DNA of 64,000 bases, taken from Macrocystis pyrifera (lineage: Eukaryota > Sar > Phaeophyceae > Laminariales > Laminariaceae). Positions 8,201 through 61,327 of the stretch are shown here, in pieces. The notes beneath the pieces were generated by a model. It saw nothing but the letters and a program-made list of their open reading frames with translations. It ran no database searches and had not been told where the DNA came from. The DNA lies in assembly GCA_031763025.1 (NCBI GenBank), contig JASSKH010000006.1, positions 12,087,979-12,151,978 of the forward strand. The letters are read 5' to 3'. A program made the translations under genes and the position numbers. The first letter of the stretch is position 1, and each line of letters opens with the position of its first letter.

Positions 8201-11200
8201 AACCTACTACAGTCACCTACTCAGTCCACGTTTAGCGGGGATAGCTGGTACTGCAGCAGCCTACTCAAGTCAGTGTTTTAAAAGGAAAACCTACAGGATC
8301 AGTAGTAGCCTGCTCACTGAGCGCTTAGACGGGAAAACCTACGGCGTTAGCCCAATCAGTCGGCGCTTCGAAGGAATAACCTATTATACTACAGTAGCCT
8401 ACTCAGTCCGCACTTTGAAGGGAGAACCAATCACGGGGGGGACCGTAGTAAATAGGACCTACGGTACACACAAAAACCTATATATTTCCCTATTTTTACT
8501 GACAAAATTCGGCCCTGTTAACTATGCCCCCCCCCCCGTAATATCATACGGTAGGCTACTAAGTCAGCGTTTAGAGGGGAGAAAATACCACGGAAGACTA
8601 CTTCTTAAGGGGGGCCATGATAAATAGGACCAAATATTGTCGGAAAAACTGGGTAAATATATAGGTTTTTGTGTGTACCGTAGGTCCTATTTACTATGGT
8701 CCCCCATAATAGCAAACACTTAGGAAGGGACAACGTACTATAGTAGCCTGTTCAGTCAGCACTTAGGGGGCGAAACCTACTGCAGTAACAGCTGGGAATG
8801 GATTCGTTTTAGTACGTGCAAAAAAAAAAAAACGATGTCGCATGGTCGAGATCTGGGGGAAAAGATCTTTACGAAATCAATCAATCCGTGATGGGGAAAA
8901 AAACTCTGTGTCTGTGCCATAAAAAAAAAACTGTTCTCGATGATGTTGCCTCTCCAAAGTGTAAGCATCAAGCCGTGCGGGGGTCGACGTCGCGGGCGTT
9001 GAGCTACGGGCTGCAAAAAAGTCAGCCTTGCTTTACTGCACAACACGTGCTGCTGGACAGCGCACCACCAAGCCCAGGGCGTAGAGAAGTAGCGTAGACA
9101 CAGAGGCGCAAGCGCGAGCGAATCGCACGTTTCTGGTGGCCCCTTGGGATCGGCGGCCGGCAGCACAAGAATGCTGCCCTTCCCTGTGAAACAAATCTCA
9201 ATATTGTACAGATCAAGTCGCAGGCTATGTGGTCCTGCTGTACTGCCGCTGGGCACGACGTGTAAACAACAACAACAAGAATGAGATACCAAGGCACAGC
9301 CAGCGACAGTCGGCTGTGTGTTGCTATATTGCACATCGCCGAGACCGGGATTCAGACGGCGCTGCCCGCATCTCGGTGCGCGTCTCTGTGAAAGCGCGCC
9401 CCACCTCTAGCTCACAGACCAGCAGATGCTGTGCATGCAGCTGGGCTTGAGCCTTGCAGCCAAGGCTGCATTCTCTACCTGTACGCGCCTGAAGTTCTGC
9501 ACGGTGCTTGCTGTATGTACTCGTACGTACCTCCCATTCTGTCCGAATGTAAGGAGCCTTTATTTTCATATATATACTCGAACCGTCCTTATATTTCCGG
9601 TCAGAGTAGTGCGGTGGAAAATATTTTTACTCGATGGTGTTCTCACGGGAGACATCATATTTGCTGCAACCGTGAATGTGTTCTCAAACCAGGAAATTAG
9701 GGTCGTGGGCAGACTATTTTCAAATTCGTGTAGTTCCGATGTTTTTCAACGGTTTCTTAAACCAATCCATTCCCATCCCTAGCCTCGACATTTTTTTCAA
9801 TGTCTTAAACCAATCCATTCCCATCCCTAGCAGTAGCTTACTCAGTCAGAACTCAGAGAAAAAACTACCTGCCACTCAACAGTAGCCTACTCAGTGAGAA
9901 CTCAAAAAGAGATAACCTGCTACAGCACCAGCCTACTCACCGGACGATCAGGTCGGTCCCCCTCTGTGTGTCCTCGTCGAAGACGTCGTTGACGCCGTTC
10001 AACGTAGAGCGGAACTCGGCCATGTTAAACGTGGACTTCACCTTCGGCAGCACGTCCGCCTGGGGTTGCTCGCCTGCAGCATTTCATTGGGTTCAACAAT
10101 TTATCACCGGCTAAGGATGAGCGTGAGCACTTCGACGCGAGCAGACGATGGAACACAGGGCTCAACCCTACGGAAGATAGAAATGCAAGGTAGCGTACCG
10201 TTGGGGGAGGGGGAGAACAGCCTGCTATACTGCGGTATATATGACCCCAGACCTCGCGTTGCGACCAGAAGGGGGGAGGAGAAAGGAAAGGGAAAGAGCA
10301 GAGAAGGATGAGGGAGAGGATAGTGGTCCTAAACATGACATGACGAGAGAGGGAGCGATGGTACTGGACTCGATACACACGCCAACGGGAGAGATACGAT
10401 AGGGAGGATGTTGGCCTGCAGTAGGTCGAGCGATGAAACCCAAGCATCGCGAGAACCCTGCCATCCAATTTACACCTGGCCGACTAACATACAGTAGTGA
10501 AGAGACTTTTGGTCAGCCAACGCGTACGTCGCCCTAGAAATCAGTCAATGTCTGGCGATTGAAGACCGAACTGACCAATGCGGCGGAAATGTCCTTGGTC
10601 GCAGCCTGGTACTTCTTAAGCGCCGCGATGTCTTTTTGCACGGCGTCCGTCGCCAGCTTGTCCGCGTCCTTCACAGAGCTTCGAGGGTCGATCACCTATT
10701 AAAATATAAGGTAAGGTAATGTATGGTAATATACACCAGGTAATATGGAGCAGGTAATATGTTAGAGGAAATAGGCAAGGTAACAGGAAAAGTAAGGTGA
10801 GGAAATAAGCATTCTCACGGAGCTCCAAGGGTCGAACACCTACTAATAGTGTTTAGGCATTAGGCAACAGGCATCGTGTAAGAGGTATCAGGTAACATAT
10901 TTTACCGGTAAAAGGTAGAACGTAATATGCAGCAGATATAACACGAAATAGGTAGATTAACAGGTGCGGTACTGGGCAACAGAAAACGAGCACCCCCGGC
11001 AACGCAAGATGTAACAGGAAACAGATAATAGGCAAGAAAAAATACGGAACATGTTACGGGTATCAGTAGGTAACGTTTAAGACGTAACAGTTAATAAATT
11101 GTAGATAAGAGTTGAAAGGTGAAAGGGACGAGGGAACATGTAACACGCAAGAGGTACTACGCAGCAGGTAATAGGTGAGGGGTACTATGAAAGAGGTACT

Positions 11201-11987
11201 AAGCAACATGCTTGATATGAAAAAGGTAACAGATACCTGGTGAGAAGCAACAGGTACTAGGCAAGAGGTGAAACCCAAGAGATAGTAGATAATAGGAAAT
11301 ATGGAACGCTGAATAAGCAACAGGGAATAGGTGACAGGTAACCGGCAACATGTAAGGTAAGGCAAGACAAGGCAAGGCAAGGCAAGGCAAGTACACCTAC
11401 ACAGGCAAACGCGTTACATGTTGAAAAAACAAAACCTTGCTTTTTTTCAAATTGTACAGCTGTACACAAACTCCATCTACCGAGCCAGCACTCAATTCCT
11501 TGCACCTCAGACACGGCACAATCCTATCCTGCGGGTAAGAGGCGGCGCAACCATCTCCCCCCTTCCACCACACCAAAAAACAAGTCATTTTCTTCGAGGC
11601 TGTCATCCATAAACAAGAAAGTCCGCCTCACGAGCAGCGGTTCTTAGTAGGATGCAGCTCATCCTTCATGCGACTCGCTTAATTCCTCGCGTTCCACTTC
11701 GCGCTTAGTGCGAGCAATCAATATCTGCCTGGTCGGTGAAAACCCGACGTGCTCCATCCCGGCATTGTCTGTACGGATGCGAGGGTCTATGATCGTACGT
11801 ACGACTACGGCCAGGCATGACCGACAATACAACACACACCCCTTCCGAACCTCGAAATGGTTTGGCTGTACGTACCCGTAAACACTGTAAAGAGTCTTGT
11901 ACTCGTGCATTTGCACACGCAACACATAAATGAATACATCGATCGGGGACAGATCAGATCCCCGTTTCATCCTCATCATCATCATCG

Positions 11988-20425: not shown

Positions 20426-23297
20426 AATGCCTGAATGCCTGCTTGTCGGTTTGTCTGTCTGTCTATCTGTCTGGCTGTCTGGCTGTCTGGCGGCCTGTCA
20501 TTATTTCTCCCCCGGCCCTCCCCATCCCCTCCCTCCCACACCCCCCCCTCTCCTATGTCCCTTCGTGAACAGCAACACTCGACGAAAAGGAGGGCAGCGA
20601 ACCCCGTCGCTGCTTTCGTCAGCAAATGCCGAGGACCTAGAAATCAGCTGCAGCGATTCGGCGGACGTAGCGGACATTGACGTAAGAAACGACGCGATTG
20701 TAGAACAGGAGGAGGAGGACGAGGGAGAGGAGGTGGGGCAGAGTGAGGAGGAAGAGGAGGAGGACGAAGAAGAGGAGGGAGAGTACGATGACGACTACGA
20801 GGAGTTGCCAGAAGAGTTCGAGGAGATCAGGGGGGCGTTTTTGGATAGGCCGGGGCAGATGCTTGACCTCGACAAGATTCTGGCGGAGACGGAACACATC
20901 GACCACTCTGACATCCCCGAGGGGTTTAGGACGGGCTACGTGACCATCGTCGGGAGCCCCAACGTCGGGAAGAGCACGCTGATGAACAACATGATCGGAG
21001 ACAGGCTCTCCATCGTCACCCCGAAGGTTAGACCTACGAGAGCCGAACGGCACGCGGCAACCCATGGTCCAAGGAATTGGGGGGGGGGGGGGGGGGTTGT
21101 ACTCATTATCATGCATGGCCGTAGTCGTATGACCATAGACCCTCGCATCCCTACATTGCCGGGACGGGGGGAGGGGGGGAACTCGTGTCATGCATGGCCG
21201 TAGTCGTGTCCGGGAGGGGTTGCGTGTGCTCATGCCGTGCATGGCCGTAGTCGCATGACCATAGATCCTCACATCCCTTCAATGCCGGGACGGAGTGCGT
21301 CGGGTTTTCACCTACCCGGCAGACATTGCTTGCACCAAGCGCGAAGCGCCGTGAGGTATTGCACGGATCTTATGAGGGGGGGAAGGGGGGGCTGGGGTAC
21401 GGGGTGGTCGTTGTGGTGGTGGTAATGCTGGTAGAAGGTAGAATTGCTGGTGTGGGTGTTGGTGTTGTTGTTGCTGGTGTTGCCGTGATCGCTGTTGTTG
21501 TCTGTCGATGCAGTCGTCGTTGCCCAGTGTTGTTGTTGTCGATGCTGCTGCCGCTGCTGCAGTCGTCGTTGTCGGTGCCGCTGCCATTTTCGGGTGGGGG
21601 TTTCTACAAGCAGAGGATGGCATTCACGCGCGCGTGCGTCAACCAGCGGGGTGGCTGTGTTCATGCCTACACCTGTAGGCACCAGCCTGAACGAATGCCA
21701 CCTCTGGTTTACGGTAGTGTCGTAGCTGGAACACGGTGGTTGACACACACCCGCCCAGAGGCCTTTCGATCTCGATTTGAATCCGAGGAACTTAGAATTA
21801 TCCGCTTTTTGTTCTTCGGTTGCCGGGAAGGCTTTCGGAAGGAAGCTAGCCGTGGGCGGCGTGTGCTTGCGCTTGCTGTGGTGTCTAGTGGTGATCAACG
21901 TCCGAGTGCTCGACGAGTTTGTGGGACACGTTGTCAACCTGGTAGTCGCCACAACGTCCGTGCTGGACCTTGGCACGCCGTTCCATTGCCCCGACAACTT
22001 TTTCCTTTGTCATGGGACCGCGCCATATTTTTATTGAGCTGCTGCGCGTCTCCGTAGAACTCCGCTACCCTCGATGCCGCAGCGCGTTGATTGGTCGATT
22101 GGTGCCTCGCAAGTTTTTTTTTCGTGTGTTTCTTGCGTGTCTTGACCGGTTTAGAGCTGCAAACACAACTTTTTGGGAGAAATCACTCGGAATTAGACTG
22201 GGTTGATTTTTGCCGTGGCAAAAGTATTCATCGAGATGTCGTTGATTGATGTCGCAAAAGAGTGATTGATGATAGATTGATGATGCCGTACGTAAAGGTA
22301 GAGTGTGCCGTAGTCCGGCGCGAGTACCGGGTTGTTTTCTGCGCCAGACCGCTGTTTTCTGAGTCGTTATGGTGGTGGGCGCAATTCCTACTCGACAGGA
22401 ACCCTCCGCTCTAGCAGGAAGCCCCCCCCTCACCCCTCTTTTGTTTAACATGCTTAATGCATTTTAACGGTTTTTGGAAGACGCCTACCCCGCGCGCTGA
22501 TTGGTCCTAATTCCTATGTGCTAAATAGGCCATGACAACGCTCCTCGCCCTTCCGTTACCCCGCTGTATGGCCATACAATTACAGCCATGCATGATAACG
22601 GGTACCCCCCCCCCACCCCCTAGCCCCCACCTCGACTTGTCCTCCCCGCCATGCCCCCCCCCCCCCCAAACCCGACTCGACCCCAACCCTCCCGGCCCCC
22701 ACCTCACCCGCCCGCCCACCCAATCTAACGTTTTCAACAACATCTGATGTTTTCGTAACGTGTTTGGCGTTTTTGTCAACGTTGGGCAGGCGGGGACGAC
22801 TCGCCACCGCATCACGGGAATTATGACGGGAGACGACTTCCAGATGATTTACCAGGACACACCCGGGGTGCTCACGCCCGCGTATATGCTGCACGTGAGG
22901 CGTTGCGGGCGGAGCCAGGGGGGGAGGGATGGTTGGGCCGGGGGGGACTGGGGGAGTGGTAGTGTTGCTGTTGTTGATGATAGTGCTGCTGGTGTTGCTA
23001 TTGTTGGTCGCGGTGTTTCGTTGTTGCTGATCGTGTTATCACGGAGGCTCACGGCAAAATATATGCCCCCAGAAAAGGCTCAAGGCATCTACGCTGTTGC
23101 TGATGGTGTTATCACGGTGGCTCATGGCAAAATATATGCCCCCAGAAAAGGCTCAAGGCATCTACTTTGGTGCGTTTTATCTCAGGAACAACTACGTGAA
23201 TCGAAAACGTTGTCTGTTTCAAACACGTGGTTGGTGATAGGCTTGGGCTTTCCATCGATGCTACATTCAACTTCTTCAGAAACAGTTGAGGAAGCCT

Positions 23298-29300: not shown

Positions 29301-32300
29301 GCAATGGTATGGTATTAGAGACAGCTTCTTGAAAAAACATCGCCCGTTGTTTGGTATGATTGTTCGGGCCGTGATGGCTTTCATCGATTGGTCGTTAATG
29401 ACTGCGGGTGGATGCTGTTGGTTGAACAACTGGTCGGGTTGTAGGATTTTTTATTCGATGTAGGTTGGCTTGGATGTCGAATTGGTTGCTTGCGCCTGAT
29501 CACCAGGTACCACTCTGTCGGTAAATGCAAGGATCGTATGGATCAGTAGTAGTCAAGGATTGACAACGAATCTTCCAAAGGTAGCTTTACGGCCACTCTG
29601 ATTGGCTAAGAGTGTATTTTAGGCGGCTCAATCAACCTAAAGTCTTTCCTGGCCACAGCATCCCGAGCCGGCTGAACCACCCTAGAGTTATTTCCAAGCA
29701 CAACATTCAAGCGGACCGAGTCATCGCAGGGTCTAAACAAGCACAGCATCCAAGCACCGACCTCTGCCATAGGGCAAGGGTTAGGGTCGGAGGGTCGGCT
29801 TTAGGCGCCAGGCACAACACCTCCGTAAGTAGTCACTATCAAGGTGTGACCACATCTCGTATGGATTAAACGTTTACGTGCGAACGGTGCTTGCATTTGT
29901 GGGCCGGATGACACCGCTTGCAATGGAATACCAAGACCCTTGATCACCTGGTGCCGCTATGCACGGACATATTAAGACCGTTGGGGTCTTCCTACGAATA
30001 CCTAAACGATCATTATATTTCCGTCCAGAGTGACGGTGTATGATTGGCGAATGGGTGGGATGGATGGGTTCACCACCTCGGACATATCATGTACAGATCA
30101 TCTGCACATCATTCCCACAGTTCATGATCTAGATCTTTCAAGGCAGACAGATCATCTAGTATCCATCTCGTATGATCTAGTTCATGTTGGCGGGTGGGGC
30201 CCGTATAATCTGCACAATCTAGCACATGTTCCCTGGGTTGCATCTGTATTGTGCAGATCCTGCACAACCTTTCACAAAAGACGGGTGAGGAACTAGATAA
30301 TCTACTGTAGATTGATAGATCATGATCTGTGCGAGGCGTTGATGGGTCGGTCGGTTGTTTGGTCCGTCGGTCGAGAATCGCGTGTTCAATCCTCCAGCGG
30401 AACGTGTCTTCACACAACTACAGCAATGGTCTCTCTATAGTGCCGGCTGCCCGCTATATTTCGGGGGACCATAGTAAACGGGACCAAATATTGTTAGTAA
30501 AAATACCTAAATATGTAGGTTTTCATGTATGCCATAGGTCCTGTTAACTATAGACCCCCGTAATAGTAGTGTGTCTTTTAAATCGCTTGCTGGGCACATG
30601 CTGTATGCATCGGATGAGTAGCCAGTGCGGCAGTGTGCGGAGTAGTTAGTGCCGATTGGCGCTATAGTAGTGCCGGTGTTGTTGGCTGGCTAGCGCATAT
30701 CATACCGGCACCATAAAGGGCTATTGCCGTACCTAAACGTGTCCTGCGCCGCTCTGTCATTGTCATGCGAGATGCAGATGCCGGATTTTTTGCCGGGCTC
30801 ACGTGGATAACTTGACGGAGAGACTGTCGTGGGTGCTGGGTCTTTGACCCGCATACAAACTGCTATGTGTCGTAGGCATTCGTACTACAATATTGTTAGC
30901 ATGTTTTACGCTCTATGTGTCACGCCCGCCGAACATTCCGCCGTTTTTTATTTTGTTTGTATTTTGGTGGATGCAAGCAAACCCCGTATTGTTTCGTGGT
31001 GCACATGGAATGCTTCGAGAAGAGCCAGTCCTAGACGCGGGGTGTTCGGCCCTCATACATCTCCTGTCCCGTATGTACCTGGTGCAGCATGTTCTTCACT
31101 CACCCCCCCCCCCCCCCCCCCCCACTCTGTCATTATTCATTGTTTTGCATTTTTTTTGCTTTGTTTTTTTTGTGGGCCTGGTCAGATCCCGTATTGTTGC
31201 GAGGTGCGCATTGGCAACTTCAAGGAGAACCAGCCTCGGATGTTGGGCGTTTATCCCGCACGCCTCTCCTGTTCCGTGTGTACCTGGCGTGAACCAACTA
31301 TTGTGGGCGTTAAAGATAGCGACCAAAACAATGGTTGGTGCATTTGGTGTTGTCATACTTCGACACCAGTTCGTGTCGTCCCGCAATCACGCAGTAGCCG
31401 ATGCCATATTCGTCACTTCTTGCCGTCATTTTTTCCCCTCTGGAATACCAGGAGGTTTACTGGCGTGTTTCCCCACTCTCCCCCCCCCTCCCCCCGCCCC
31501 CAATGTACAATTCATTCGAAGCATCGAAGCTGCCATCCGTCGCAAGTCCGCCCCACACGCGGTTGTTAGTAGGATCCCTGCAGCTCACTCTTCATGCGAC
31601 GCGCCGAACACCTCTCGTTTTTCGCTTCGCGCTTTTTGCAAGCAATCAATGTCCGCCTGGTCGGTGAACTCCCGACGTGCTCCGGCCCGGCATTGTAAGC
31701 ATGCGGAGGTCTTTGGTTATACGACTACGGTCACATGCATCAACATGAGTGCCCACCCCCCCCCGTGCTGTCACTGTTTTGCGTTCGCTTTTTTTTTTTG
31801 GGGGGGGGGGGCGCCGAGCAGATCCCGTACTCTTGCGAGGTGCGCATGGACAAGTTCAAGGAGAGGGAGTCGGAGACGGTGTTGGATGCTACGATTGTGG
31901 TGTCGCAGGAATCTCAGAAGGGGATGGTCATCGGAAAGGGGGGGGGAAGATCAAGGAGGTCGGCATCAGGGCTAGAATAGTGAGTGTTGTCGAGACAACC
32001 GGCGAGGGAAGGAAAAAAGGACAGGAAGAAATACGAACACAGGACGGGAAGCAAAGACTACCGCATGACGGGGACCGCGCACTAAAACGACACGTTTTTT
32101 GGGAGAGGCAGAAGGGACAGAAAATAAGACGAAAGGCACATAAAACACGACACGAAGGGACATATGGCTAGGATTGTGAGTGTCGATACAATAAGCGGGA
32201 TTCTACATAAGGAGGCGTAAAAGAAATACCTGGACCCAAACCCGGACCGAAGGACAGAAAATGGCACAAAATGGACAGAAAAACACGACCTGAAGGGGCG

Positions 32301-33039: not shown

Positions 33040-34054
33040 TGGGCTGTTGTTACACATGGTTACCGAATGACACGCAAGATAGCGCGTACCCATTGGGATG
33101 AAGTTCCGGACCGATTGTGTAAGCAAGGGGGGCACACACGGCGAGTAGAGCATACCAGTACCACTTATTCGAGATTTGGTCTGATTGGCGTAGGGCCAGG
33201 ATTAGGGTTGCTCTTATTGGCGTAGGGTTACGGTTAGGGTTGGTTCTATCCGTCTCGTGCACAGTGCGTGTCAACCATTTTCTCGAATAGGTGGTAAACA
33301 ACCTCCACAGGACACGCACGCCGGAAACTGTGGCTCTTCGAGATATACCTGGTACTGTCGAAATATTTCTCTGACATGCCTCCCTCGAAAATTTGCGCCT
33401 CCCCCATCTTCGAGAAATCCAGCTTGGAAAATCCGCCCGATTGAGGTGTTCTTGCGATTTTTAACCACGTGACAAATGAGAAAGGGGTCAATCAGATTTT
33501 GCTATTTTCTTCTTGTCTCGAAGATGGTGGGTGCAGGACACGCATTCATTCGCACGCAGATCGTTTCGTTTGGGTTCGACCTGCGGTCAGATAATACATT
33601 TGTGTACTTATTTGTGTTTGCCTGAAAAACGCGACTTCGCGGGAGGAGTAGGGAGAGGGAATCATCATAATCATTCATTCCTCAAATATATAGCCGCCTT
33701 GCCAGTGATGCTGCGTTGCTCTCCCTGCACTTTATATCACCAAACCCGTCGGCGCTGAGTCCTCCCAGCGAACACGAGTAGGCATTACCGTGGACCACGC
33801 ATTACCAGTGATGAGGACCCAAGATATAGACAAACACCTTATATATTTCAGTAATTTTACTACTTTAAACGCGTTTGTTCTTGCTTACTTTTGATATTAA
33901 CATGTCCCCCCCCCGTGATTACTTTTGCTTCTCTAGCTCAAATCGCAGGCGTTTTTTGTACCCAACGAACGACCTCCCGGACAAAGCCGTGGTGTGATAA
34001 CGAGTGCCTTTCCTCTTACCCCCCCTGGACCAGAAAATAAATCATTGTCGACGA

Positions 34055-34256
34055 CGAAAGTCCGCCTCAAACAGCGGTTGCTGGTAGGATGCAGCTCACA
34101 CTTCATGCGATTCGACCAAGACCTTACGGCGCTTCGCCATTGGTTGTGTCGCAATGTCTGCCTGGTCGATTAAAACTCGACGTGCTCCGTCGAGGTATTG
34201 TAGGGATGCGAGGGTCTATGCTCACACGACTACGGCCATGCATGATAAATGAGTAC

Positions 34257-34351
<95 letters not shown>
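34055..34351 (+). mobile_element. SINE-like M4 copy with 94-base poly(C) tail
   Basis: The element body starts near AAGTCCGCCTCAAACAGCGG and ends GGCCATGCATGATAAATGAG, then TACA and 94 uninterrupted C (34258-34351). It is the longest homopolymer in the window and the clearest example of the family's C tail. Confidence 0.75.
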
Positions 34352-34418: not shown

Positions 34419-34537
34419 TATCACGGGGGTCCATAGTTAATGGGACCTCATTTTGTTAGAAAAAATAGGTAAATATATAGGTTTTTTTATGTACCAGGTA
34501 TACCATAGGTCCTATTAACTATGGACCCCCGTAATAG
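34419..34537. mobile_element. MITE family M1, copy 8
   Basis: Ends TATCACGGGGGTCCATAGTT and AACTATGGACCCCCGTAATA are near-perfect inverted repeats. An 8-10 bp ACCAGGTATA insertion lengthens the right half. Confidence 0.85.
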
Positions 34538-35310: not shown

Positions 35311-35420
35311 TATTACGGGGGGGCATAGTTAATAGGACCTACGGAACAGACGAAAACCTATATACTTACCTATTTTTACTGACAATATTTGGTCCTATTT
35401 ACTATGGTCCCCCGTAATAG
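35311..35420. mobile_element. MITE family M1, copy 9
   Basis: Ends TATTACGGGGGGGCATAGTT and TTACTATGGTCCCCCGTAAT. The centre AAAACCTATATACTTACC is intact; it is one of the best-preserved copies. Confidence 0.85.
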
Positions 35421-35547
35421 TACTTCGTACCAGGTATGGTGTCAGTTTTTACCACAAATTCTGAAAAAATGGTCCCATGACACTGATTTCAAGTGAGTTG
35501 TTTTCCCGCGACAAGCCGATTTACGTGGTCTCATCTCCGCCATGGCA

Positions 35548-38396: not shown

Positions 38397-41300
38397 CTAG
38401 GCACGCACGCCGCCGCGATTGAAGCCTCTGCCGCCCCCACCCCGACCCGCCATGGGACCCCCCCCCCCCCCCCCCCCCCCCCCGGCCCCGTAAGCTGGGG
38501 AAGATGGACATGAGGTCCGAAGTATCCCGCTGCTCTCGGCGCGGGTACCTTTCCCCCTCCCACGCCCCGCCGCTTTCCCGCTCGCGCCCCCGCGGGGTCT
38601 ACTGGAGGCCTAATCCTCGCCCCCTCCCGCGTCTCCCCCTCTCCAACTCCGACGCCGTCACCGCCACTATCGGCAACAGCGCTCTCTGCGGGTTGGTCGC
38701 GGACTCCAGGCACTGCTGCCGGCGGTGGCGCACCCGCAGGGTCAGCCTCGGTCTTGGCGCCGCCACTTCTGCTACCGCCTGCACCGTCGCCATCACTCAC
38801 ACCGCTACCCCTGCCGCCCCCCCGTCCCCCACCGCCACCATCACCGTCGCTGTCGCCGCCAAACCCTCCCCCAAGTTCCGATCCCCGCCCCCCCTCCCTA
38901 CCTCCTTCTCTTCCTCTGCCTCCTCGTCCGTGAGGCACCCAAGTCGAACCTCGGCCGCCCCTGCCACCCCCACCGCGACCTCCGCCGCTGCCGCTGCCGG
39001 TTCGCTCGCCTCGGGCCTTCTTGGCGGCCTTATCCTTATCCCTGCTGCGCCCCCCCGCCTTGACTTGCTCGTCCTTGAGCCAGTCTCTAGCGCCGGCGTC
39101 TAGGTCTTCTGGGTCGGCGCGGAAGGCCAGCTCGTGCGCGTGGTGCGTGAACCAGGCGGAGGGGTTGTGGAGGTCGAGACGGTCCGGCTTGTCGCAGTAG
39201 TCCTTCACGGCTCTCTCCATCACCTGTGAGTGAGGGGGTCGGAATACCGACGGATGGGCCGATCGATGGACCGACAGACGGACAAGATCGACAGACAGAC
39301 GTACGGAGACAGACGGACGGACAGACGAGCGGGCATACAATAACATACCATTCAGTACCGGCATAAAATGATATATTTAGACAAGAGCGCACGAGAAAAG
39401 GACAAATCGACACCACAACTCCTAAAAAGGAAAAACAAAAAAAAGAGGAAAAAATAAAACAGTGGAGTGGGGATTTCTAGACGACCTTACGAAAAGCGTT
39501 TTATTCAAAGTCTTTTACTTGGTTTTAGTATACCCCCCCTGCCTGGAGCTCCGTCTCGAAAGGGATGCGTGGTCAATGGTCACATGACCAAGGCAAGCAA
39601 CAAATGAGTACGCCTCCCCCCCTGTCTGGATCTCGAAAATGCATAGTGGAGTGTCGGTTTTTTTTTTTTTACGTGCACTCTTGGTATTGCTAATCAGTGC
39701 CGTGGGTGAGGGGGGTGAATCGAGACACGGTAGGGAGCAAAGAGCCACCGAGCCGCTTAGGCGCGTAAATTTGCTATATTGCCTTAGGGATCAAGGTCAC
39801 GGTTACGGATACGGTTCGGTTCCGCCGCAATAGAAAACATCATCGGGAACGTCGTGGCATGACCTACCTGGTACCAGGTACCCGGTATATCGTTGACGTC
39901 GACGTCGAAACACAAAACGATTCAAATAAAAAAAGAGAGGGGGGAAAAGCTGTCTGGAAATAACAAAACAAAAAAACACAGCGCAACGACCCGATCCGCT
40001 GTCAAACCCGCCAAATTCTTCGGGGGGGGGGGGGGGGGGGGGGGGTCGGGTCGACCACACCGCCTATTTTTTACTGCGGTAGCATTGGCCGCGCCATCAT
40101 CGTGCCTTCTGTCCACCCGCCCACCCATCCATCCATCCACCAAACCATGCGTCCACCCATCCACCATCCATCTGTCCATACTAACATAATCTCGACAAAA
40201 CACTGTGCCTCCCCTATTCATCAATTTCCTTCGTGCCATCCCCGCACCTACCATTCATCGATCAATCCATATCATTATATCGTTAATATCGACGAGATTA
40301 TGTCTCTTCCCCTCATTCGCCACCCATCTCCTCCCCTCCTTACCTTGGCTTCCATTTTTTCCAAAAACCTCTTGGGCTGCGGTGTCGAGCTCCGCCTTGC
40401 CGAGCCTTCCGGCGTCTATGAACTCAGCAAGAACGCGCTGTACGACGCTCTTCATGAACTCCTTCTGTTCTCCCCTCTGCTCCTGGAGGCGCCCCACCTT
40501 CTTCTCCTGATCTCGCCAGCGTCAGGGGGAAAACCGCAGAAACGAATTACAAACTACAGGCAAACAAAATATATCACACGAATAAGCAAAATAAAACAAT
40601 ACAACACAAAACAAACTACAGAAAGACTAAAACAAAAAAAACGCAACGCAAAACTGACTGAATAAAACAGAACGAAACACAGCACAAGAAACGCAAAAAA
40701 CAAAAAAACAATACGAAACAAAGGAAGCACGAACCAACCAACCTCCCCCCCCAAAAACTAACAAACAAATAGAAAACAAAAAAAACAAACGACACATTAT
40801 ACGTACTCGTCCGAGCATGCTATGTTTTAGACGCGGCATGTCTCACAGTGCCAACACACCTCTCCCTGCCAAATTCCAAGTTGTTTATCGCGAAAACTTG
40901 AAAAAAATAGGTGCAGACATCGACTAAATGGGTTATGTATATAACATGAAGGGCAGTTTAAGTGACGTGGAAGGCATTTTTTTTGTGATCGTCCGCACCG
41001 GGGCGCGGGGTTCGTCCACGGATGGGAGCGACGCTTCTACGCAGACACAAGCACACAGAACACGAAACACGATACGTAACATGCTGCAGACAAGACGGGC
41101 AATGTTGCCATAAAAACTGCCAGGGTACAGTGTTAATAGTAACAGTCACCGTTAATACGAGGAAAGTAGCCGCGAAGCAGCTCTGATGTACGCGCACAAC
41201 CAGGCCGCGTGCGTGCTACATGCAGCGTTCGTCGGGCGAGCGAGAATTAACGCCGAAGACATCGACGATAGGCACAACAACGGACCAGGCAAAACTAATT

Positions 41301-45890: not shown

Positions 45891-48800
45891 ATGGCGGCTG
45901 ACATGGCTGCCCTGAAGAACTGGGTGACCGCTGCGGACGGGGAGCAATTCTCGAGGCTTCCCGAGGGGGTCGTGAGCGTGAACATATCGCACTCCAACAT
46001 CACCGCGCGAATGATCGAGCTTAAGTTCGACCTCAGCCAGACGGTAGGAACGAGACCCGACGGACCCCCCCTACCGACCGAACGACCGACCCCCTTGGTT
46101 TGCTCATTTGCTTATGGTGTTGTTTGCTCGTTTGTTTGTTTGCTTGGTGGTTGGTTTTTGTTTTGTTTGCTTGGCGGAAGGTCTGTTTGTTTTCTTATTT
46201 ACTTGTTTGTTTGCTTGCGGGCTTGCTTGTGAGCTGACTTATGTGATATGGTATAGTATCGGCTATAGAAGTGATTATGATACAGCCCGTAGTATCAAAG
46301 CCCTGAATACCCTAGGTACGAGTATTCCCGGGGACTCTGAAGTTTTCTTTGCAGTACAATGGTTAGGATAGCCGATAGGAGAAGAGTAGACATGCGCCCG
46401 AGGAAAGTTCCTCAGACAAGTGTCTTTACCTGTCCAGCGGGTTAATAGAAGGAGAGCAGAGTGGGCTTGATGCCTTGAGTCAAGCCGCTATCGATTCACT
46501 CTCTCAAAAGCTCTCTCTCGTCATATAAGGCGACAACACAAGGAGTCTACTGAACAAGAGAAGCTGCCTTCCTAGCCAGTTCCAGTAGTACCTGCATTCA
46601 ATTCCCATACCACGATAATCGGGTTATACTACACTTACTTTTGGGCTTGCGGGCTTGTTCGCGTTTGGGCCTTGCTTGCTTGTTTGCTTGTGGGCCTTGC
46701 TTGCTTGTTTGCGTGTGGGCCTTGCGTGCTTTTTCGCGTGTGGGCCTTGCTTGCTCGCTTCCATGAGGCACGGCCGGTGTGTGGCATGATACGCTGTGCG
46801 GCGTGATACCCGCCCGTTTTGACGAGTCTGTAGACAGGCCTCCAACCGCTCGCGATAACCTCCACGAGGCACAATTTACCCTCACGGAAAGCAGGGTTCG
46901 AATTTATATTGGATATGTAGCACGGGGCCTACGGCACAGCAGTAGATAGTAAACTAGGCTGATTACGGCGGGTTTCGATCCGCAATTCACTCGCGGTAGA
47001 AGATAACCATAGGTGTAGGCAGATCTCGTGCATTGCCTTCGCGTACGGGCCACGCGCTCGTCGAGTTCATGTTCGAGAGTGATACGTGAAATTGTCCTCG
47101 TTTTACGCAGTGTGAAGAATACCTCTGTGCGTATAACCCCAATTTCAATATTTTATTGTACGCGGAGAATGAAAAATACGTAGTCAGGTATGTACTGTCC
47201 CGTCGCCATCACATACAGCAGTTACGATACTATTACTACAGTAGAAGAACGCTAAAGTAGCGAAAACGTAGCGCGGGTGAAAGGACCGACGACTTCCCCT
47301 CAGGCGTCGCCCCGTGTTGTGGATGTATGTGATCCAACAGTGCCAGTCAACTCGTCTGTCGAGCTCGCTGTATCGCACCGCAACAGTTGTCGTAGAGAGA
47401 TGACTCCCTACGTAAATATCCCAGACCCTCCCCCCCCCCCCCCCCCGGTTGGGTTGGCGTCGGTTGGCAACGACACTGTAAAACATGCCGCTCACTACGT
47501 GAGCTAGACATCCAGGGTACCGTTTTTTTTTTTTTTTTTTTTGGCGGTCGCCCACAGCTGGTTGTCGAGTGAGATCGTTTGTGCGGAGTAAAGAACCTTT
47601 ACTCTGCACAAGGGAATTGATCGTATCACGTCGTGTTCAAGGTAAGGCACCCAAGAGGCAGTTACATAGTACTCCCATTGCTGTCTCTGGAAGTGGCTAC
47701 ACCGGAAATTAAACTAACTCATTGAGGCTGTCATCCATATGCAGGTCCGCCTCACAAGCGGTTCTTAGTAGGATGCAGCTCACCCTTCATGCGACTCGCC
47801 GGACACCTCACGGCGCTTCGCGCTTGGTGCAAGCAATGTCTGCCTGGTCGGTGAAAACCCGACATGCTCCGTCCCGGCATTGTAGGGATGCGAGGGTCTA
47901 TGGTCATACGACTACGGCCATGCATGAGATCGAGTACATCTCTCCTGTCGAGTACACCCCCCCCTCCCCCCCCCCTGCCCCACGGCCATGCATGATATTG
48001 AGTAGACCTCCCCCACCCACCCACCCACTCACCCACCCACCCCGCCCATCCATCCATCCACCCACCCACCCACCCACCCTACGCCCTATGCGTTTGTTTT
48101 TGTTTTTGTTTTTGCGCGGAACAAACTCTGTCGGCTTGCGCAGCTCGGGGACGTGAAGGGGAAGATTTACACGCACTGCGGCACAAACCCAGGCATGCAA
48201 AAGCTAAGCTTGAGGTCTGGTGGGCAAACGGTGAGCCGGCCAAGTCTGTTCTCCTTGTGTTAGGAGGGGAAGGAGGGAGAGAGGGGGGGGGAGAAGGAGA
48301 GAAGGATGGGAGGGCAGGAAGGGAGGGAGAACGGGACGGGGGGGGAGGGAGGGAAGGAGAGATGGAAGGAGGGAGGGAGGGAGGGAAGAAATAAGAGAGG
48401 GGGCGAAGAAATCGAGAGAACGCGGGATCGTCACCAGAGCTACCAACGGAGTGGACGTGCTTTTTTTCATTTCTGTAGCAAGCCCGGTCAAACCATCCGA
48501 GCAACGGGTGTCGTCAAATATCAAGCACTACATATATAAGTAATGCGTGTTGTCTAATATCAAGCACCACGTATATAGGTAGTAGTGTCTCCTGCTCATA
48601 ATATCTGTTTCGAGGACCTGGGCCAACGTTTGTTGCCCTGAGCAGGAATTGCCTGGGAATTTGTTTACTCCCTCCAAATTATTCCCCCCTCTTCCGTATG
48701 CATATATACAGGACTCTAAACTATTTCCCCCTCTTCCGTATGTATATATGCAACGTACGAAGTGGGTGCGCGGATGGTTTTGTGCATGAAAATATATTGA

Positions 48801-51800
48801 AACAGTTGTTGTCCTCATTCTTCCCTCCCTCCCCATCCCGCTTGTGCTGGTGGCTACTTTTTGGACCCAAGTTGTGCTTGCTGGAAGATGACTCCAAGAA
48901 GCTCGGCTTTTACGGGGTTCAATCGGGCATGGAGGTGAGATGAGACCCGCTTGCCTCTTGTGCCCACGCTTGCACCCAAGCCATTCTGCTTTGTAACTGA
49001 AAACTTACCCTCTGCGGAATATGAAGCAAAAGCGCGGAGCACCGCACGAAGGAGTGCAATCGTTTTTTCCGCGACCGTTTTTTTGTCGACAAACGGTGCG
49101 AGGGTGCTATCACAAGAGTCCAACATTCTATTTTCGGAAAAATCTTGACCACATCTTTCCGAAAACACCCTTGATCGGTATTGGCACGGCAACCTTCCTT
49201 CCGTTCTCAGGGGAATCGAGCGCTAAAAAAACGATCGCACCTCGGTGCGAAGTGAACGCTCTTTACTCCTTACGGTGCTTGTTTTCAATATTACGGGGGA
49301 CCATAGTAAATAGGACCGAATACTGTTATTAATAGTAAAAATAGGGAAATATATAGGTTTTTGTGCGTACCGTAAGCCCTATTTACTATGCCCCCCCGTA
49401 ATAGTACGCTCTGACTTTAAGAGCGAAACGAGTTTGCTCATTTAGACGACCGGCGATAAGGAAGGGGGGCCCTTTTGCGCTAGGTAGAGAAACCGTAGAC
49501 CTGGAGCAGGATACATCCGCATGATAACCGAATATATCCGAGAGCAATGATTGTTTTGGTATGCGTTCCACCACCCCACGCAGTCGACGACAGTTACTAC
49601 GACAAATACCCGGCAGCGCGAGTTTCCATCGAGAGCTACGTGCTCTTATCTTATATTGTTAAACCTTTCAAGACTTGAGATCGCAACATTGACGATACAA
49701 ATTGACCATTACATCAACCATTGTAGCAACTGCGTGGTTCGGGGATGATACCAGTCGGCGTCCCGAGTTACAATGGTTGCTATTCGAGGAGTGGTACGGC
49801 ACAGGCGCAGCATGATCCTAACCCTAATGCTGCTGTATAGGCACTCACGCCGCTCCTAGACGATTGATAACACTTTACTTGTAGTTTCCAACCGTTGTGC
49901 TGGTCGCTATCTAACACCTTAGTTACCAACCATTGTGCTGGTCGCTAATCTAACACCTGAGTCACCAACAATTGTGTCGGTCGCTGTGCTATCTCGGGGG
50001 TCCCAAAGTTGTTAATAGTGGAATACTATTAGTAAAATAATGATAATGATACTGATGTGTGCATAAATATCCGTAATATGAGCATGATAACACCCCCCCC
50101 CCCCCCCCCCCCGGAAATTTCTTCCGAGCCGATTTTCTCAACAAGCGGGAGAGTGCAAGGCCACAGCGAGATATTTCCTAAGCCATATTTTTGCTTGTGT
50201 ATGCCCCCCGTTGGTTCGGACAAAAAACACCTCGGAAAGTTCGTCCCTGGGGTGCTTTCTTAACCCTTTCAGTACCGCAGTCCCGATTTGGGGACAAACC
50301 AGTCTAATTCCAAGTGATTTGTCCCCAAAACGGGACTGCAGTACTAAAAGGGTTAATCTGTCATTGCAAACTTTCGGCCGCCTGTCGGTCGATCCGCCGG
50401 CGGAAGTTTCACGGGGACATTTTCGTCGCCGAAGTCCGCGTTTATGCGATCGAACCCAGCGTGCCTCTCGGGTTTAAGAGCATATTCGATAGAAGCCTCG
50501 TTTCATAGCGGGCACAAAAAATTGAGCCTACTGCTGTAAAGCGTACTATTAATACAAGAGTTTCTTATGTGTCGGAAGTTTTCTTATGCGTACGTGTTTA
50601 CCCCGTTCTGCTAAGAGCCCATCTTAACGGGGGACACTAAATTTCGTTTAATCAGATGCAAATTAAATTAGAAAAAAGAGCAAGTCAAATTGACAGAACC
50701 GAAAGTCCTCGATAAGATGGGCCCTAAAATTAAATTAGAAAAAAAAAAATCAAGTCAATTTGAAAGAGCCGAAAGTCCCCGCTAAGATGGGCCCTAATAC
50801 TGCTGCGTAACTTTTTCTTGTTTCTCGTTGTGATTGTTCGCCGGGTGTGCTGTATGCGCTGTATGAAGATTCACGTCAACGACGACGACCCGTTCTCGCT
50901 GACGCGCGGAGGGGCGCTGGAGAACGTATCCCTTGTGAAGAAGTACCGCATGAGCGAAGAGGACTACGACAAGAGAAAGGGGACTTTGAGGTGGGTATGT
51001 GTCCGTTACCGCACTCACCCCCTCCCTCCTCCTCCTTACTGTTTTCCCCCAACAGACGGAGTACCCCGCCTACTGTTTGCCTCCTCCCACGTACCCGCTG
51101 TTTTTTTCAGTAGATGGAGTACCCCGCCTACTGTTTGCCTCCTCCCACGTACCCGCTGTTTTTTTCAGTAGACGGGGTACCCCGCCTACTGTTTGCCTCC
51201 TCCAACGTACCCGCTGTTTTTTTCAGTAGACGGAGTACCCCGCCTACTGTTTGCCTCCTCCCACGTACCCGCTGTTTTTTTCAGTAGACGGGGTACCCCG
51301 CCTACTGTTTGCCTCCTCCCACGTACCCGCTGTTTTTTTCAGTAGACGGGGTACCCCGCCTACTGTTTGCCTCCTCCAACGTAACTGCTGTTTTTTTCAA
51401 TAGGCGGAGCCCCCCGCCTACTGTTTATGTTTGTGTACGTCGTAACATATATTAATAGCACCCCACCTCGATGCGGTTTCGTTTTTATGTATACTGTGCT
51501 GGCACAACGGTGCCCGTCCGGTGCGCTGTTTATGCAGCAGACCCCCGCGTGCTGCTTGAATTATGCTGATACAACTGTACCCCGCGTACTGTTGATTTTA
51601 TGCTGGAAACAGTACTCCCCTACTGTTTAGTCCAGTACCCTGCCTACTGCCGTCTAGTTTATACTAAACTAGCCCTTCTACGGTATGTAGTATTGAGCGT
51701 ATACCGGTTACTGGGTACCGGTATATGGGTACCGGTATATGCAGTACCCTGCCTACTGTCTTATTGATATGCCATCAGTACCCTGGCTACTGCTGACGGC

Positions 51801-58558: not shown

Positions 58559-61327
58559 GCTTTTAGTGTTGCCGCAATATTCACTGAATGTTTGTATGTA
58601 CTCGGATAATTGTGTTTCCTGGTCGTTTTGTGGCGCTGCTGCGTTGTTGCCGTACATCATGCTGGACATGATTTGTGTGTCTATTACACTTAAACTTGTG
58701 CGTGTGTATATATTTCTGTATCGTCGATGATTTTTTTTGAGGTGCTGCTGCGTTGTTGCCGTACATCATGCTGGACGTGATTTGTGTGTGTACTGTACTA
58801 CACTTGTGTGTCTACATATTTCTGTGTCGTCAATGAAATTACGTACTTGCTGCTTCTGCTGCTGCTGCTGCTGCCGTCGTATGGCAAGCGATTACGTGCT
58901 GCTGTTGTGCCGCTGTAGAGTAGTACAAATAATGAACTCTGCCCCCCCCCCCTCCCCCGCCATTCCCTGCACGCCACTCCCTCCCCGCGCACCCTATATG
59001 TTTACTTCGACCAGGTCCGTGGCAAGTGCTACAACTGCCGCCTAACGGACTCCACCACCAAAGACGGAGACATCGTCATCAAGCGCAAAAAGACTCCCTT
59101 CCATTTCGCCTGCTCCAGGGCTTCGCGGAATTCCGAAGCAGTACGCCAAGCAGATTGTCGCCATCCAGGACGAACGAAAGGAAACAAATTGTTTCCCACA
59201 TTTCCCAAAATCACGATTATTTCTTCCTACACATATCCAACGGGTTCAACAGCGAACAGATCCACATTCTGGGCCTCCCGCCTCGTTACTACAGCGTCCT
59301 GGAAGACTATTTACATATATATCATGTCTCATCCAAACTCCTATGCTGGCTACATCGAAATCGCGGCCGCCCAGCAACTATACAACACTTCCATAACCGT
59401 TGTCGTTGCCGGCACTGCTGCTTTCTCTCCTGTCCCAAACCTTCCTTTAAACAACAGCCTGTATGTTGTATATCATTCACATGCCAAGCACTACTCCATT
59501 CTCTCCCCACACTGATGAAAGATGTTATTCTTATTATTAGACGAATGTCATTCTTACTCTTGCATCACCCGATCTTATGTTTCACATTACATTTATAAAT
59601 AAACGCGATTATTACATCCTCCACTTACATCCTTCACCGTTTCTTACACAAATACATTTAGTTTGGTTGGCTTTGGGCTATGTCGCCAATTAATTGCAGT
59701 TATATGTACACGAAACGACGGAATACCCACTCCGAAGGAAAGCCTTGTAATACCCGTATATTTTTCACATCAGAGTCCAAATGAGGATTATATTCCCGGC
59801 CACTTTTTGGCCGAAAATATAATCGCCGTATATCGTTCACATGAGAGTCCCAATGGGGATTATATTTCCGACCGGAGTGGATGGGAATATAATAACCGTA
59901 TAGTATTCACATCAACGTCCAAATGTGGATTGTATCTCCGATCAGAGTGGTAGCACTGCTGTATTGCCGTCCTGGGCAACGGCGCGAGCGATTTCCTTCA
60001 TGCTGCCACCGTCGCCGCGTATTAGATCCTCCTGCCCACTGCACACAGAGAGCCCCGACAGGCAAATATGGATGGCTATGCGATCAAACCCTTTGCGTTG
60101 GTTTCCTCGCTTTTTGGCGTCAATACTACTACAGTACCTCGCCACTTGCCACCCGTTTGCTTGGACGTCCTCTTCGATCGTTGCTAAGATTTATTCCATC
60201 GTTTTTTTTTTTTTTTTCCGTCGAGTTATCCTCGACGTTTCCTTTTCGTGACGTTTTCGTGCTCCCCCGTCCATTTTTCATCTACATAAAGCATGTCTCA
60301 TCTACAGTTGTATGTTTCGTCTCTGTTCAATCTGTTTTGATTTACGCATCTATTTTGATCTATTTTCAATCCGTTTTTCTTCGGTTTTTGCTCTTGCGTA
60401 CGGCGTTTCAAGGACGCCCCCCCTCCTGGGAAGGAGACCGTCGAGGGGATGACACAGGGCCAGCGGTGCGAGGTGCAGCCGGGGGGAAGGAGGGGGCAAG
60501 TGGAGTTCGTGGGAGAGGTGGAAGGTCTGCAGGTGAGCTGATTAACGCAAAATTGTGGCTTTATCACTTACAGCTATTATACCAGGTAGGCCCTTGCCTG
60601 CCGGTCGGAGGTGCTGTGCAGGACCTGCATGTTTATGCTATAAGTCCACATCTAGCCCAGGAGACATGTCCTGCTGTATATCGTGCAGATCACGTAGGTT
60701 GTACAACTCCCACCCGGCAACGTGAGCTAGATCACACAGATCATACAGATCATACCGTACGTCAGCTAGTCGATACCTGGTACTGTGCTCAGCCTTGCAA
60801 GCTGCGTGATGGGGATGCGTTGCTGGGCTGTTTTGTATTCATGTGCTCAACGTATATTTTTTTCTCGTCATCTCTACATTATGTCTTGTTGGAGTAGAGT
60901 GACCCACCACCTTAATGCGACTTGCCCAACACCTCGCGCTTCGCTTCGCGCTTGGTGCAAGCTATCAATGTCCGCCTTGGTTGGTCAAACCCCGACGTGC
61001 TCGGTCCCGGCATTGTAGGGATGCGAGGGTCTATGGTCGCACAACTACGGCCATGCATGATATGAGTACCCCCCCCCCCCCCCGCACGGTCAACTTGCTT
61101 GCTGTTTTTGCGCGTGTCATGCTGCCTCGACCAGGCCGGCTACTGGGTGGGCGTGCGGTTCGACGAGCCGGTGGGCCGCGGAGACGGGAGCGTCCGAGGG
61201 AAGCAGCTGTTCGAGTGCGGAAAGGGTTTCGGCGGGTTCGTCCGCGGAAAAAAATGTGACCGTGGGAGACTTCCCTGAGAGGCCGTTCGATGAAGATGAC
61301 GATGAGGAGGATGAAGACGAGATGTGA
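45891..61327 (+). CDS. TBCB: Tubulin-folding cofactor B (UBL + CAP-Gly)
   Basis: Seven exons: 45891-46043, 48144-48230, 48872-48934, 50869-50990, 52174-52273, 60413-60532 and 61135-61327, about 278 residues. The start has ACCATGG context. Residues about 25-107 form the ubiquitin-like domain (VVSVNISHSN early, KLGFYGVQSGMEIHV at its end). A charged linker with SEEDYDKRKGTLR follows, as in TBCB. The CAP-Gly domain begins at GQRCEVQPGG and includes GYWVGVRFDEPVG, GRGDGS (229-234) and FGGFVRGKN. The acidic end DEDEM mimics the tubulin tail. TBCB binds alpha-tubulin after chaperonin folding and, with TBCE, hands it on or dissociates dimers. Exon 7 contains seven A (61248-61254) where six restore the frame through the stop at 61327. 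Exon 4 uses an ATGAAG acceptor and exons 3 and 6 AAG acceptors. The fifth intron is 8.1 kb. A partial copy of exon 7 lies downstream. Confidence 0.9.
46640..46765. repeat. GGGCCTTGCTTGCTTGTTTGC minisatellite
   Basis: Four units of about 30 bp in TBCB intron 1; unit starts at GGGCCTTGC are near 46656, 46690, 46718 and 46743. Confidence 0.75.
47724..48015 (+). mobile_element. SINE-like M4 copy plus 3' fragment
   Basis: A full-length copy begins GAGGCTGTCATCCATATGCA and ends GGCCATGCATGAGATCGAGT, then C-rich DNA. A second 3' end, GGCCATGCATGATATTGAGT, follows at about 47984 with its own C-rich/ACCC tract. It lies about 130-400 bp upstream of TBCB exon 2, in the gene's orientation. Confidence 0.75.
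49051..49245. mobile_element. MITE family M6, copy 2
   Basis: GGAGTGCAATCGTTTTTTCC and GCTAAAAAAACGATCGCACC are the inverted ends; ACCACATCTTTCCGAA is shared with 12147-12340. Confidence 0.7.
49289..49404. mobile_element. MITE family M1, copy 12
   Basis: Ends TATTACGGGGGACCATAGTA and TTTACTATGCCCCCCCGTAA. It carries an ATTAATAG insertion after the TGTT of the left half. Confidence 0.85.
50262..50357. mobile_element. MITE family M3, best-preserved copy
   Basis: TTAACCCTTTCAGTACCGCA to GCAGTACTAAAAGGGTTAAT with inner CAGTCCCGATTTGGGGACAA / TTGTCCCCAAAACGGGACTG. The arms pair over about 42 bp with a 15-bp loop. Confidence 0.85.
50616..50796. mobile_element. MITE-like element M8 with 20-bp inverted ends
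   Basis: AGCCCATCTTAACGGGGGAC at the left is the inverse of GTCCCCGCTAAGATGGGCCC at the right. An internal copy of the right end plus AAATTAGAAAAAA (50690-50735) indicates an internal duplication. It ends about 70 bp upstream of TBCB exon 4. Confidence 0.7.
51052..51425. repeat. 58-bp minisatellite bearing splice-acceptor-like ends
   Basis: Six to seven units GTAGACGGGGTACCCCGCCT, ACTGTTTGCCTCCTCCCACG, TACCCGCTGTTTTTTTCA with very few differences. It starts about 60 bp after the TBCB exon 4 donor. Each unit contains GCTGTTTTTTTCAG, a full polypyrimidine-plus-CAG acceptor. Degenerate CAGTACCCTGCCTACTG words continue to about 51820. Confidence 0.9.
52309..52422. mobile_element. MITE family M1, copy 13, nested in M3
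   Basis: Ends TATTACGGGGGACCATGGTA and TTAACTATGGACCCCCGTAA; it begins about 35 bp after the TBCB exon 5 donor. Confidence 0.85.
52474..52583. mobile_element. MITE family M1, copy 14, nested in M3
   Basis: Opposite orientation to copy 13: TATTACGGAGGACCATAGTA at the left, TTTACTATGGTCCCCCGTAA at the right. Confidence 0.85.
53564..53935. mobile_element. Repeat family M7 copy carrying an M1 insertion
   Basis: GGGTGCACCTATGATTTTCT and TGAGGAGCTCTACTCTATTA lie left of the insert. CACCCAAAACCTGACTTTTG, CCGATGAAGCACTGCCATGC and CCAGTGACGTTGGGTAATTC lie right of it, matching 42660-42890. Confidence 0.65.
53657..53773. mobile_element. MITE family M1, copy 15, nested in M7
   Basis: Ends TATTACGGGGAGGCATACTA and ATTCACTATGGTCCCCCGTC; the right end has lost its TAATAG. 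Confidence 0.75.
54255..54945. repeat. 70-bp satellite array, main block
   Basis: Ten units with starts (ATTCACGTCAGAGTCCCAAT) near 54261, 54331, 54402, 54472, 54541, 54611, 54668, 54723, 54793 and 54863. Each continues GGGGATTATATTTCTGACCA, then GGCCGGGAATATAATCCCCG. Two units are 55-57 bp through internal deletion. It stops where the 54946 duplication begins. Confidence 0.9.
54946..56450. repeat. Large imperfect duplication inserted in the satellite
   Basis: Segment A (TCTGGAACAGAAAAGAGGGG to GTAGAAAGAGGCTA, about 150 bp) occurs at 54948-55083 and 56051-56197. Segment C (GATCCCAAACTATATACGAA to ACGATGTTACAACA) occurs at about 56003-56048 and 56400-56443. The order A-x-C-A-y-C shows two tandem units whose middles differ (900 and 190 bp). 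The block interrupts the 70-bp satellite, which resumes right after it. It may be an element with terminal repeats; no protein of a transposable element was recognised. A minus-strand 250-codon open frame (55100-55852) lies in the first middle and has no resemblance I can name. Confidence 0.7.
56446..56515. repeat. 70-bp satellite, single unit
   Basis: AATATTCACATCAAAGTCCT, GATTATATTTCCGAACGACG and GGCCGGGAATATAA continue the array of 54255-54945 after the inserted block. Confidence 0.8.
56773..59515 (+). CDS. ePHD-like zinc-finger gene or gene fragment in TBCB intron
   Basis: Segments with coherent frame: 56773-57031, 57060-57136, 57307-57398 and 59015 onward (open to 59515). They encode a Gly/Ala/Pro/Ser-rich lead, CDQCTDQH, then CEFCARPIKEG, then HMHNC, then GKCYNCR and FHFACS. 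The order CxxC, HxxC, CxxC, HxxC resembles the extended PHD (zf-HC5HC2H) of chromatin proteins such as BRPF or PHF6, but the middle Cys pair is missing. The first two segments are separated by only 28 nt with GT-AG ends, so a frameshift is likelier than an intron there. Beyond FHFACS another frame reads PKQYAKQIVAIQDERKE, suggesting a second frame break. No start exon was found and the phase does not fit splicing with TBCB exon 5. It may be a nested gene on the same strand or a pseudogene. Confidence 0.4.
57628..58900. repeat. CTG-rich large tandem repeats
   Basis: Blocks starting GCTGCTGCGTTGTTGCCGTNC, then ATCATGCTGG, then a TGTGTGTACATATTTC region occur near 57628, 58073, 58368, 58637 and 58744. 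The first two share GGCATACCAGGGTACATNCT and TTCATATCGTTGCTATGCTG over about 180 bp. They fill the last intron of the zinc-finger-like segment and generate many Leu/Cys/Ala-rich open frames. Confidence 0.75.
59745..59950. repeat. 70-bp satellite, distal block
   Basis: Three units (CACATCAGAGTCCAAATGAG, CACATGAGAGTCCCAATGGG, CACATCAACGTCCAAATGTG) of the 54255-54945 family. With the unit at 56446-56515 they bracket the zinc-finger-like segment. Confidence 0.8.
60585..60780. mobile_element. Repeat family M2 copy in reverse
   Basis: GTGCTGTGCAGGACCTGCAT, then GTTGTACAACTCCCACCCGG, CAACGTGAGCTAGATC and CAGATCATACAGATCATAC. It lies 50 bp after the TBCB exon 6 donor. Confidence 0.6.
60905..61083 (+). 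mobile_element. SINE-like M4, 5'-truncated copy
   Basis: It starts only at CCACCTTAATGCGACTTGCC, lacking the GAGGCTGTCATCCAT head, and ends GGCCATGCATGATATGAGTA plus about 15 C. It stops about 50 bp upstream of TBCB exon 7, in the gene's orientation. Confidence 0.75.

Follow-up and report, generated by a model that had tools for sequence, protein, structure and literature searches.

The stretch of giant kelp DNA analyzed here (64,000 nt, hereafter the window; GC 0.48–0.55 in 4-kb steps) carries copies of one repeat family, designated c1 to c8. We searched for the same family in the whole assembly (537,376,219 bases, 223 contigs), and loci read from the assembly carry L numbers (L001 is c5 itself); the genome report, in the parts covered here, gives 537 Mb, 223 contigs, and 50.37% GC (PMC10498591). 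The window copies, re-measured against a genome-derived profile of 523 positions, and their candidate target-site duplications (TSDs) are located as follows.

11559–11566, plus strand: c1, candidate 5' TSD copy CCCCTTCC, inside the C6 run at 11557–11562; 8 bp, weak alone (null 95% point 7, maximum 9)
11568–11828, plus strand: c1, body, 5'-truncated, profile about 278–512
21226–21379, minus strand: c2, first unit, 5'-truncated, profile 368–522
21183–21209, minus strand: c2, second unit, 3' end only, profile 491–518, then a C-rich stretch
21079–21167, minus strand: c2, third unit, 3' end at 21167–21098 (profile 454–523), then C18 (21096–21079)
22567–22614, plus strand: c3, 3' end only, profile 484–522, with C10 at 22605–22614
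31509–31764, plus strand: c4, 5'-truncated, profile 288–520, with C9 at 31756–31764
34019–34028, plus strand: c5, candidate 5' TSD copy CCCCCCCTGG (3' side CCCCCCCTTG, 9/10, weak)
34029–34257, plus strand: c5, body of the copy first noted, 5'-truncated, profile 282–523
34258–34351, plus strand: c5, C94 run that follows the 3' end and is an outlier for its length
39533–39547, plus strand: c8, 5' copy of a 15-bp duplication, CCCCCCCTGCCTGGA
39548–39615, plus strand: c8, body, 5'-truncated 3' end of the family (E 0.0002; E 0.00011 with the genome-derived profile)
39616–39630, plus strand: c8, 3' copy of the duplication, CCCCCCCTGTCTGGA
47430–47446, plus strand: c6, C17 run immediately ahead of the body
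47447–47938, plus strand: c6, body, nearly full length, profile 25–523 (E 1.7e-159)
47957–48004, plus strand: c6, C8 (47957) and C10 (47966) runs, then a second short 3' end at 47981–48004
60908–61083, plus strand: c7, 5'-truncated, profile 367–522, with C15 at 61069–61083

The initial annotation had described copies with a common 3' end followed by C. Family sequence was indeed present at all the places it listed, but it had missed the copy at 39548–39615, and its 5' ends and anatomy required correction. The copies at 11.6, 31.5, and 34.0 kb, which it took as whole, are all 5'-truncated by the genome-derived profile. The copy assigned to 47724 actually begins at 47447, with the C17 run immediately ahead of it, and lacks little of the full length; the one at 47984, entered as a separate copy, is a second, short 3' end that follows the C-rich tail of this 47.4-kb copy. 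Similarly, what had been taken as a single minus-strand copy at 21.1–21.4 kb comprises three successive 3' ends. These minus-strand copies overlap the end of a GTPase open frame (an exon matching Pfam MMR_HSR1, E 7e-8, at 20427–21200), and an intron of this gene is hence their probable location. The window also contains a MITE-like short element at 34422–34535 with inverted ends around GGGGGTCCATAGTTAAT / ATTAACTATGGACCCCC, with relatives among repeat groups D5 and D6 (e.g., 2960–3070, 8603–8713, and 35311–35421), and a tandem array with a 58-bp unit at 50996–51459.

Genome-wide counts confirmed that the repeats form a real family. The exact 29-base sequence of the 3' end occurred 1861 times in the assembly and a 35-mer consisting of this end plus ACCCCC occurred 786 times, with zero occurrences of the reversed control in each case; both counts are lower bounds for the family because most window copies differ from the exact 29-mer. 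With well over a thousand copies in the giant kelp genome, this short mobile element seems to spread by way of RNA into C-runs, doubling the run on each occasion. The exact 3' patterns gave no matches in viral_contigs and genome_contigs, from which records of the window's own genome were possibly excluded.

When the best 30 matches to c5 were compared (41 matches listed; 40 of 5541 candidates scored), the common sequence extended further 5' than the unit described at first, which therefore represents only the 3' part of the element. The consensus, computed from 22 of these 30 matches, indicates a full-length body of about 520 bp running from 5' TATATTATATACC to CATGCATGATAATGAGTACA 3' and ending in GAGTACA. 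This body contains a T-run of about 20 near positions 100–120 and has no coding capacity, with a stop-free stretch of at most 72 codons. Compared with 100 shuffled sequences, one full-length copy had a better fold than 97 (z −2.3). In one subfamily, represented by L009, L016, L018, and L039 and by window positions 47926–47956, the 3' end ahead of the C-run is doubled (CGAGTACATCTCTCCTATCGAGTACA type).

The annotation's proposal of target-primed retroposition makes predictions for the 5' ends and flanks of the copies, and we examined both. For the 5' ends, we used copies not selected by their 5' end, namely the 30 entries at the head of the 35-mer list (chosen by ACCCCC) and 20 entries from the 29-mer list that were, by eye, absent from the 35-mer list. 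Two of the latter 20, L067 and L068, seem to duplicate L065 and were set aside, leaving 48 copies, some of which are neighbors in one cluster (L059 and L060; L032 and L066). With the 3' end fixed, 12 of the 48 began at body positions 1–11 and the other 36 were scattered over positions 41–491. For the flanks, 81 copies were analyzed (59 of the first 60 loci, with L001 omitted as identical to c5, 20 further loci, c7, and c8), aligning the flanks after C-runs had been cut to three C and taking shuffled pairings as the null. A duplication score of 10 or more was reached by 19 of the 81 copies versus 2.9 expected, and a score of 13 or more by nine versus 0.7, and the remaining 62 scored below 10. 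The 19 scoring copies include L065 together with its duplicates L067 and L068, as well as three cases other than plain duplications (L045, L060, and L003). Clear duplications were found at L081, L002, L055, L023, L077, L007, L024, L029, L019, and L059, and by eye at c8, whose direct repeat CCCCCCCTGCCTGGA / CCCCCCCTGTCTGGA is identical at 14 of 15 positions. Within the window alone, duplication scores were near the null (best 8, 8, 7, and 7; null 95% point 7, maximum 9), and a scan for direct repeats led by a C-run mainly recovered tandem arrays.

A fixed 3' end, scattered 5' starts, and direct repeats around the body plus its C-run are thus found together, and retroposition by target-primed reverse transcription is well supported by these sequence features. 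The element is short, numerous, and non-coding, as a DNA transposon or MITE with conserved ends would also be; nevertheless, we give this explanation virtually no credence given that the 3' end is fixed and 5' truncation points are scattered, that the direct repeats vary in length, and that no inverted repeat was seen by eye between the two consensus ends. Fixed 5' ends combined with terminal inverted repeats had been named as a sign that would speak against retroposition, and we saw no trace of this combination.

The C tract reported behind nearly all copies was confirmed in the window, where a C-run of at least 8 started no more than 25 nt past the 3' end in six of seven copies, compared with 1.4% (plus strand) and 0.8% (minus strand) of random positions. 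The exception was c1, which has only CCCC behind its 3' end, and this CCCC together with TTCC at 11839–11846 repeats the 5' flank. C-runs are common in the window, which has 43 C or G runs of at least 8, yet their association with the copies is far above chance. The runs are not confined to the 3' side, a point that the initial annotation did not make: C-runs of at least 6 were present within 30 nt upstream of four of the seven copies versus about 2% of positions, and c4 has an additional C9 run upstream, at 31480.

The same held for the genome-wide loci. Of 77 copies, 67 had a C-run of at least 6 in the 40 nt upstream, against a background of 3.2% measured in 40-nt windows in the distal flanks of long loci; upstream runs of the other letters were found at 0 (G), 1 (A), and 2 (T) of the 77. 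Among 18 copies without ACCCCC behind the end, 16 also had at least six C upstream. The direct repeats begin with the C-run and continue into unique sequence, so that the same simple repeat stands on both sides, within the duplication, a feature of non-LTR elements that target simple repeats. This arrangement differs from that of a poly(C)-tailed retroposon, in which the C-run would be at the 3' end only.

These observations bear on two other accounts of the C-runs. If the family were a true poly(C)-tailed retroposon, the long C tail of its RNA would be copied in, and a few target C would serve for annealing only. C does follow the 3' end in nearly all copies (a run of at least 4 within 7 nt in 17 of the 18 copies lacking ACCCCC, with none in L074), and the 3' run is much longer than the 5' run in c5 (94 versus 7), L059 (24 versus 6), and L023 (16 versus 5); such runs in c5 and L059 fit either a tail or strong expansion. 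We nevertheless regard a tail as improbable, considering the upstream runs described above and the lengths on the two sides. In 16 copies with an eye-picked duplication, the 5' and 3' C-runs had medians of 8 and 10 (paired p = 0.85), with the 3' run longer in only six, equal in two, and shorter in eight, and in c8, L077, and L081 the 3' duplication copy exceeds the 5' copy by at most one C. The suggestion that poly(C) is the tail of the element was, accordingly, mostly not supported. Alternatively, the C-runs could be microsatellites with no role in insertion, having expanded later out of a short C-rich 3' terminus. Instability is typical of homopolymer runs, and those seen here range in length from 3 to 94, but the upstream C-runs belong to direct repeats and no other letter shows an enrichment of runs, making this account very unlikely. 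On the sequences compared, the poly(C) behind the element appears to be mainly duplicated target, expanded in some copies. We read the C94 of c5 in the same way, as an expanded target run; its candidate duplication matches at nine of 10 bases, seven of them C, and a target run of about seven C would have expanded later.

A simple model of this kind leaves the 5' C-run of full-length copies unexplained. A C-run of at least 4 ended no more than 3 nt from the body in 17 of 26 full-length copies versus 19 of 46 truncated copies (distance test, p = 0.027; five copies with intermediate starts were excluded). No C-run of at least 4 was present within 60 nt upstream of four of the 46 truncated copies, L047, L049, L056, and L077 (the last has CCC), and the sole upstream C-run of a further truncated copy, L038, is 53 nt away. 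The duplication and the body are separated by a C-run at L002, L023, and L029 and by two C at L019, and L040 has a partial repeat of the 5' end in place of the C-run. The 5' C-run of full-length copies may reflect an RNA that starts in C, or template jumping.

Family copies are also clustered in one orientation. We counted other family hits around 60 central copies (L059 and L060 overlap, so some hits are counted twice) and found 27 neighbors on the same strand and none on the opposite strand within 60 bp, 11 and none at 61–400 bp, and 22 and 10 beyond 400 bp; hence, all 38 neighbors within 400 bp were on the same strand. A strand-specific target predicts this, with new insertions landing in the C-runs of older copies. 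The tandem satellite at L045:780–1760 has a C-run in each unit, and one unit is interrupted by a full-length family copy lying inside its C-run, whereas the other units keep the run without an insertion. For the clusters only, a single event in which the reverse transcriptase jumps from RNA to RNA is an alternative to nested insertion. We listed 41 head-to-tail junctions joined by C-runs, seven of them with a full-length following unit, and C-runs at both element ends would assist such jumping. However, the duplication at L037 surrounds a unit sited behind an older copy, and therefore at least some cluster units were inserted separately, as in nesting; fixed orientation is expected under either model. 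We consider template jumping a possible but less than even explanation of the clusters.

Taken with the truncation and the duplications, the placement of the C-runs makes it quite likely, in our judgment, that the family is a non-autonomous retroposon of about 520 bp inserted into C-runs by target-primed reverse transcription. We infer that insertion would be G-primed and carried out by a putative partner enzyme. If the G strand were nicked at the left boundary of a C-run, the resulting primer would end in G; it could pair with the 3'-terminal C of the element RNA, which ends in about GAGUAC(A)C, and be extended, and a cut of the C strand further right would yield the duplication. Each insertion would then leave two C-runs, both potential new targets in fixed orientation, and the head-to-tail clusters are proposed to arise for this reason. 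A more far-reaching version, which we put forward only tentatively, holds that the element RNA both starts and ends in C, that cDNA ending in G anneals to C-runs of the target at both junctions, and that each insertion adds a C-run in the same orientation; the element would thus make its own targets and have built much of the poly(C) landscape of kelp, served by a putative retroelement enzyme specific for C homopolymers.

The family had been called SINE-like, and in the strict sense this name does not apply because no pol III promoter was detected beyond chance. The best A box match in the element has one mismatch and the best B box match two; of 300 shuffles, 295 equaled or beat the former and 198 the latter. 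ARAGORN and Rfam likewise returned no match indicating a tRNA, 5S, or 7SL origin in the window and the full-length loci tried, a search that very diverged relatives would escape. Were pol III used, the internal run of about 20 T would terminate its transcription.

Retroelements aiming at simple repeats are already known, and microsatellite-targeting non-LTR retrotransposons include Kibi, Koshi, Waldo, and Mino. The kelp element resembles these in that target-primed insertion into a simple repeat leaves the repeat on either side, but its repeat is the single base C, and it is itself short and non-coding. In L1 and Alu, the duplication starts with an A-run that pairs with the RNA end, and copies are 5'-truncated. 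The kelp family shares the truncation and a duplication that starts with a run pairing with the RNA end; conversely, its base is C, a long copied tail is not needed, and no pol III promoter was found in it. The passages covered here of PMC4640811 attribute target specificity to several non-LTR clades that encode an RLE, with microsatellites as the target of some, including some HERO families. Lepidopteran RTE elements, as described in the sections covered, spread microsatellites, and many of their copies are truncated at the 5' end and carry simple repeats at the other (PMC2887409); unlike their repeat units, which belong to their own 3' UTR (PMC2887409), the kelp C-run is mostly duplicated target.

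Among brown algae, Ectocarpus has abundant LINE-dependent short elements, with CRE, RTE, and RTE-X families in thousands of copies, and one of the elements described, RTEX-N1_Ec32, is about 600 bp long with a 5' origin not determined there (passages covered of PMC12477816). Compared by description only, the kelp family is similar to RTEX-N1_Ec32 in being a non-autonomous brown-algal element of similar length, with thousands of copies and no assigned pol III origin; C-runs are not mentioned in the passages of that description covered (PMC12477816). Overall, the kelp element fits best as a passenger of a simple-repeat-targeting non-LTR system and not, by the features tested, as a SINE. We found no report, in mainly open-access literature, of a single-C run as the target of an abundant short element. 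If the proposed mode of insertion is true, each insertion would double its own landing site, a mechanism that would spread C homopolymers and one-orientation head-to-tail clusters, and the putative enzyme would be a target-primed reverse transcriptase with a homopolymer preference.

The initial annotation had suggested a search for an autonomous LINE with the same last 30–50 bp as the element. We searched with the RVT_1 profile (7470 candidates, 150 scored and listed) and, aiming at other clades, with a group II RT profile (3328 candidates, 101 scored), and inspected the DNA downstream of the reverse transcriptase at 19 loci (L061, L062, and L083–L099), all belonging to one abundant LINE group with two or three subfamilies. 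At none of these 19 loci was the element's 3' end found in sense orientation at the LINE's own end, and these searches yielded no candidate protein with a preference for C-runs. Two family fragments lie beyond the LINE at L098, on the opposite strand, and a non-significant family match (E 0.26) was obtained at L086. The C-runs closest to the LINE ends begin about 60–80 nt beyond them (L098 and L084), and the LINE ends at L061 and L062, read by eye, have a CAA-type tail. L061 encodes a 1237-aa frame with endonuclease and reverse transcriptase matches; a tblastn search of this frame against the window and the loci collected hit L030 only, where the LINE remnant is an oppositely oriented neighbor. 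The LINE copies at L061:397–5164 and L062 (reverse strand) are 99.3% identical over 4768 bp, which suggests that this abundant LINE was recently active. The LINE end at L061 adjoins a long CATA array.
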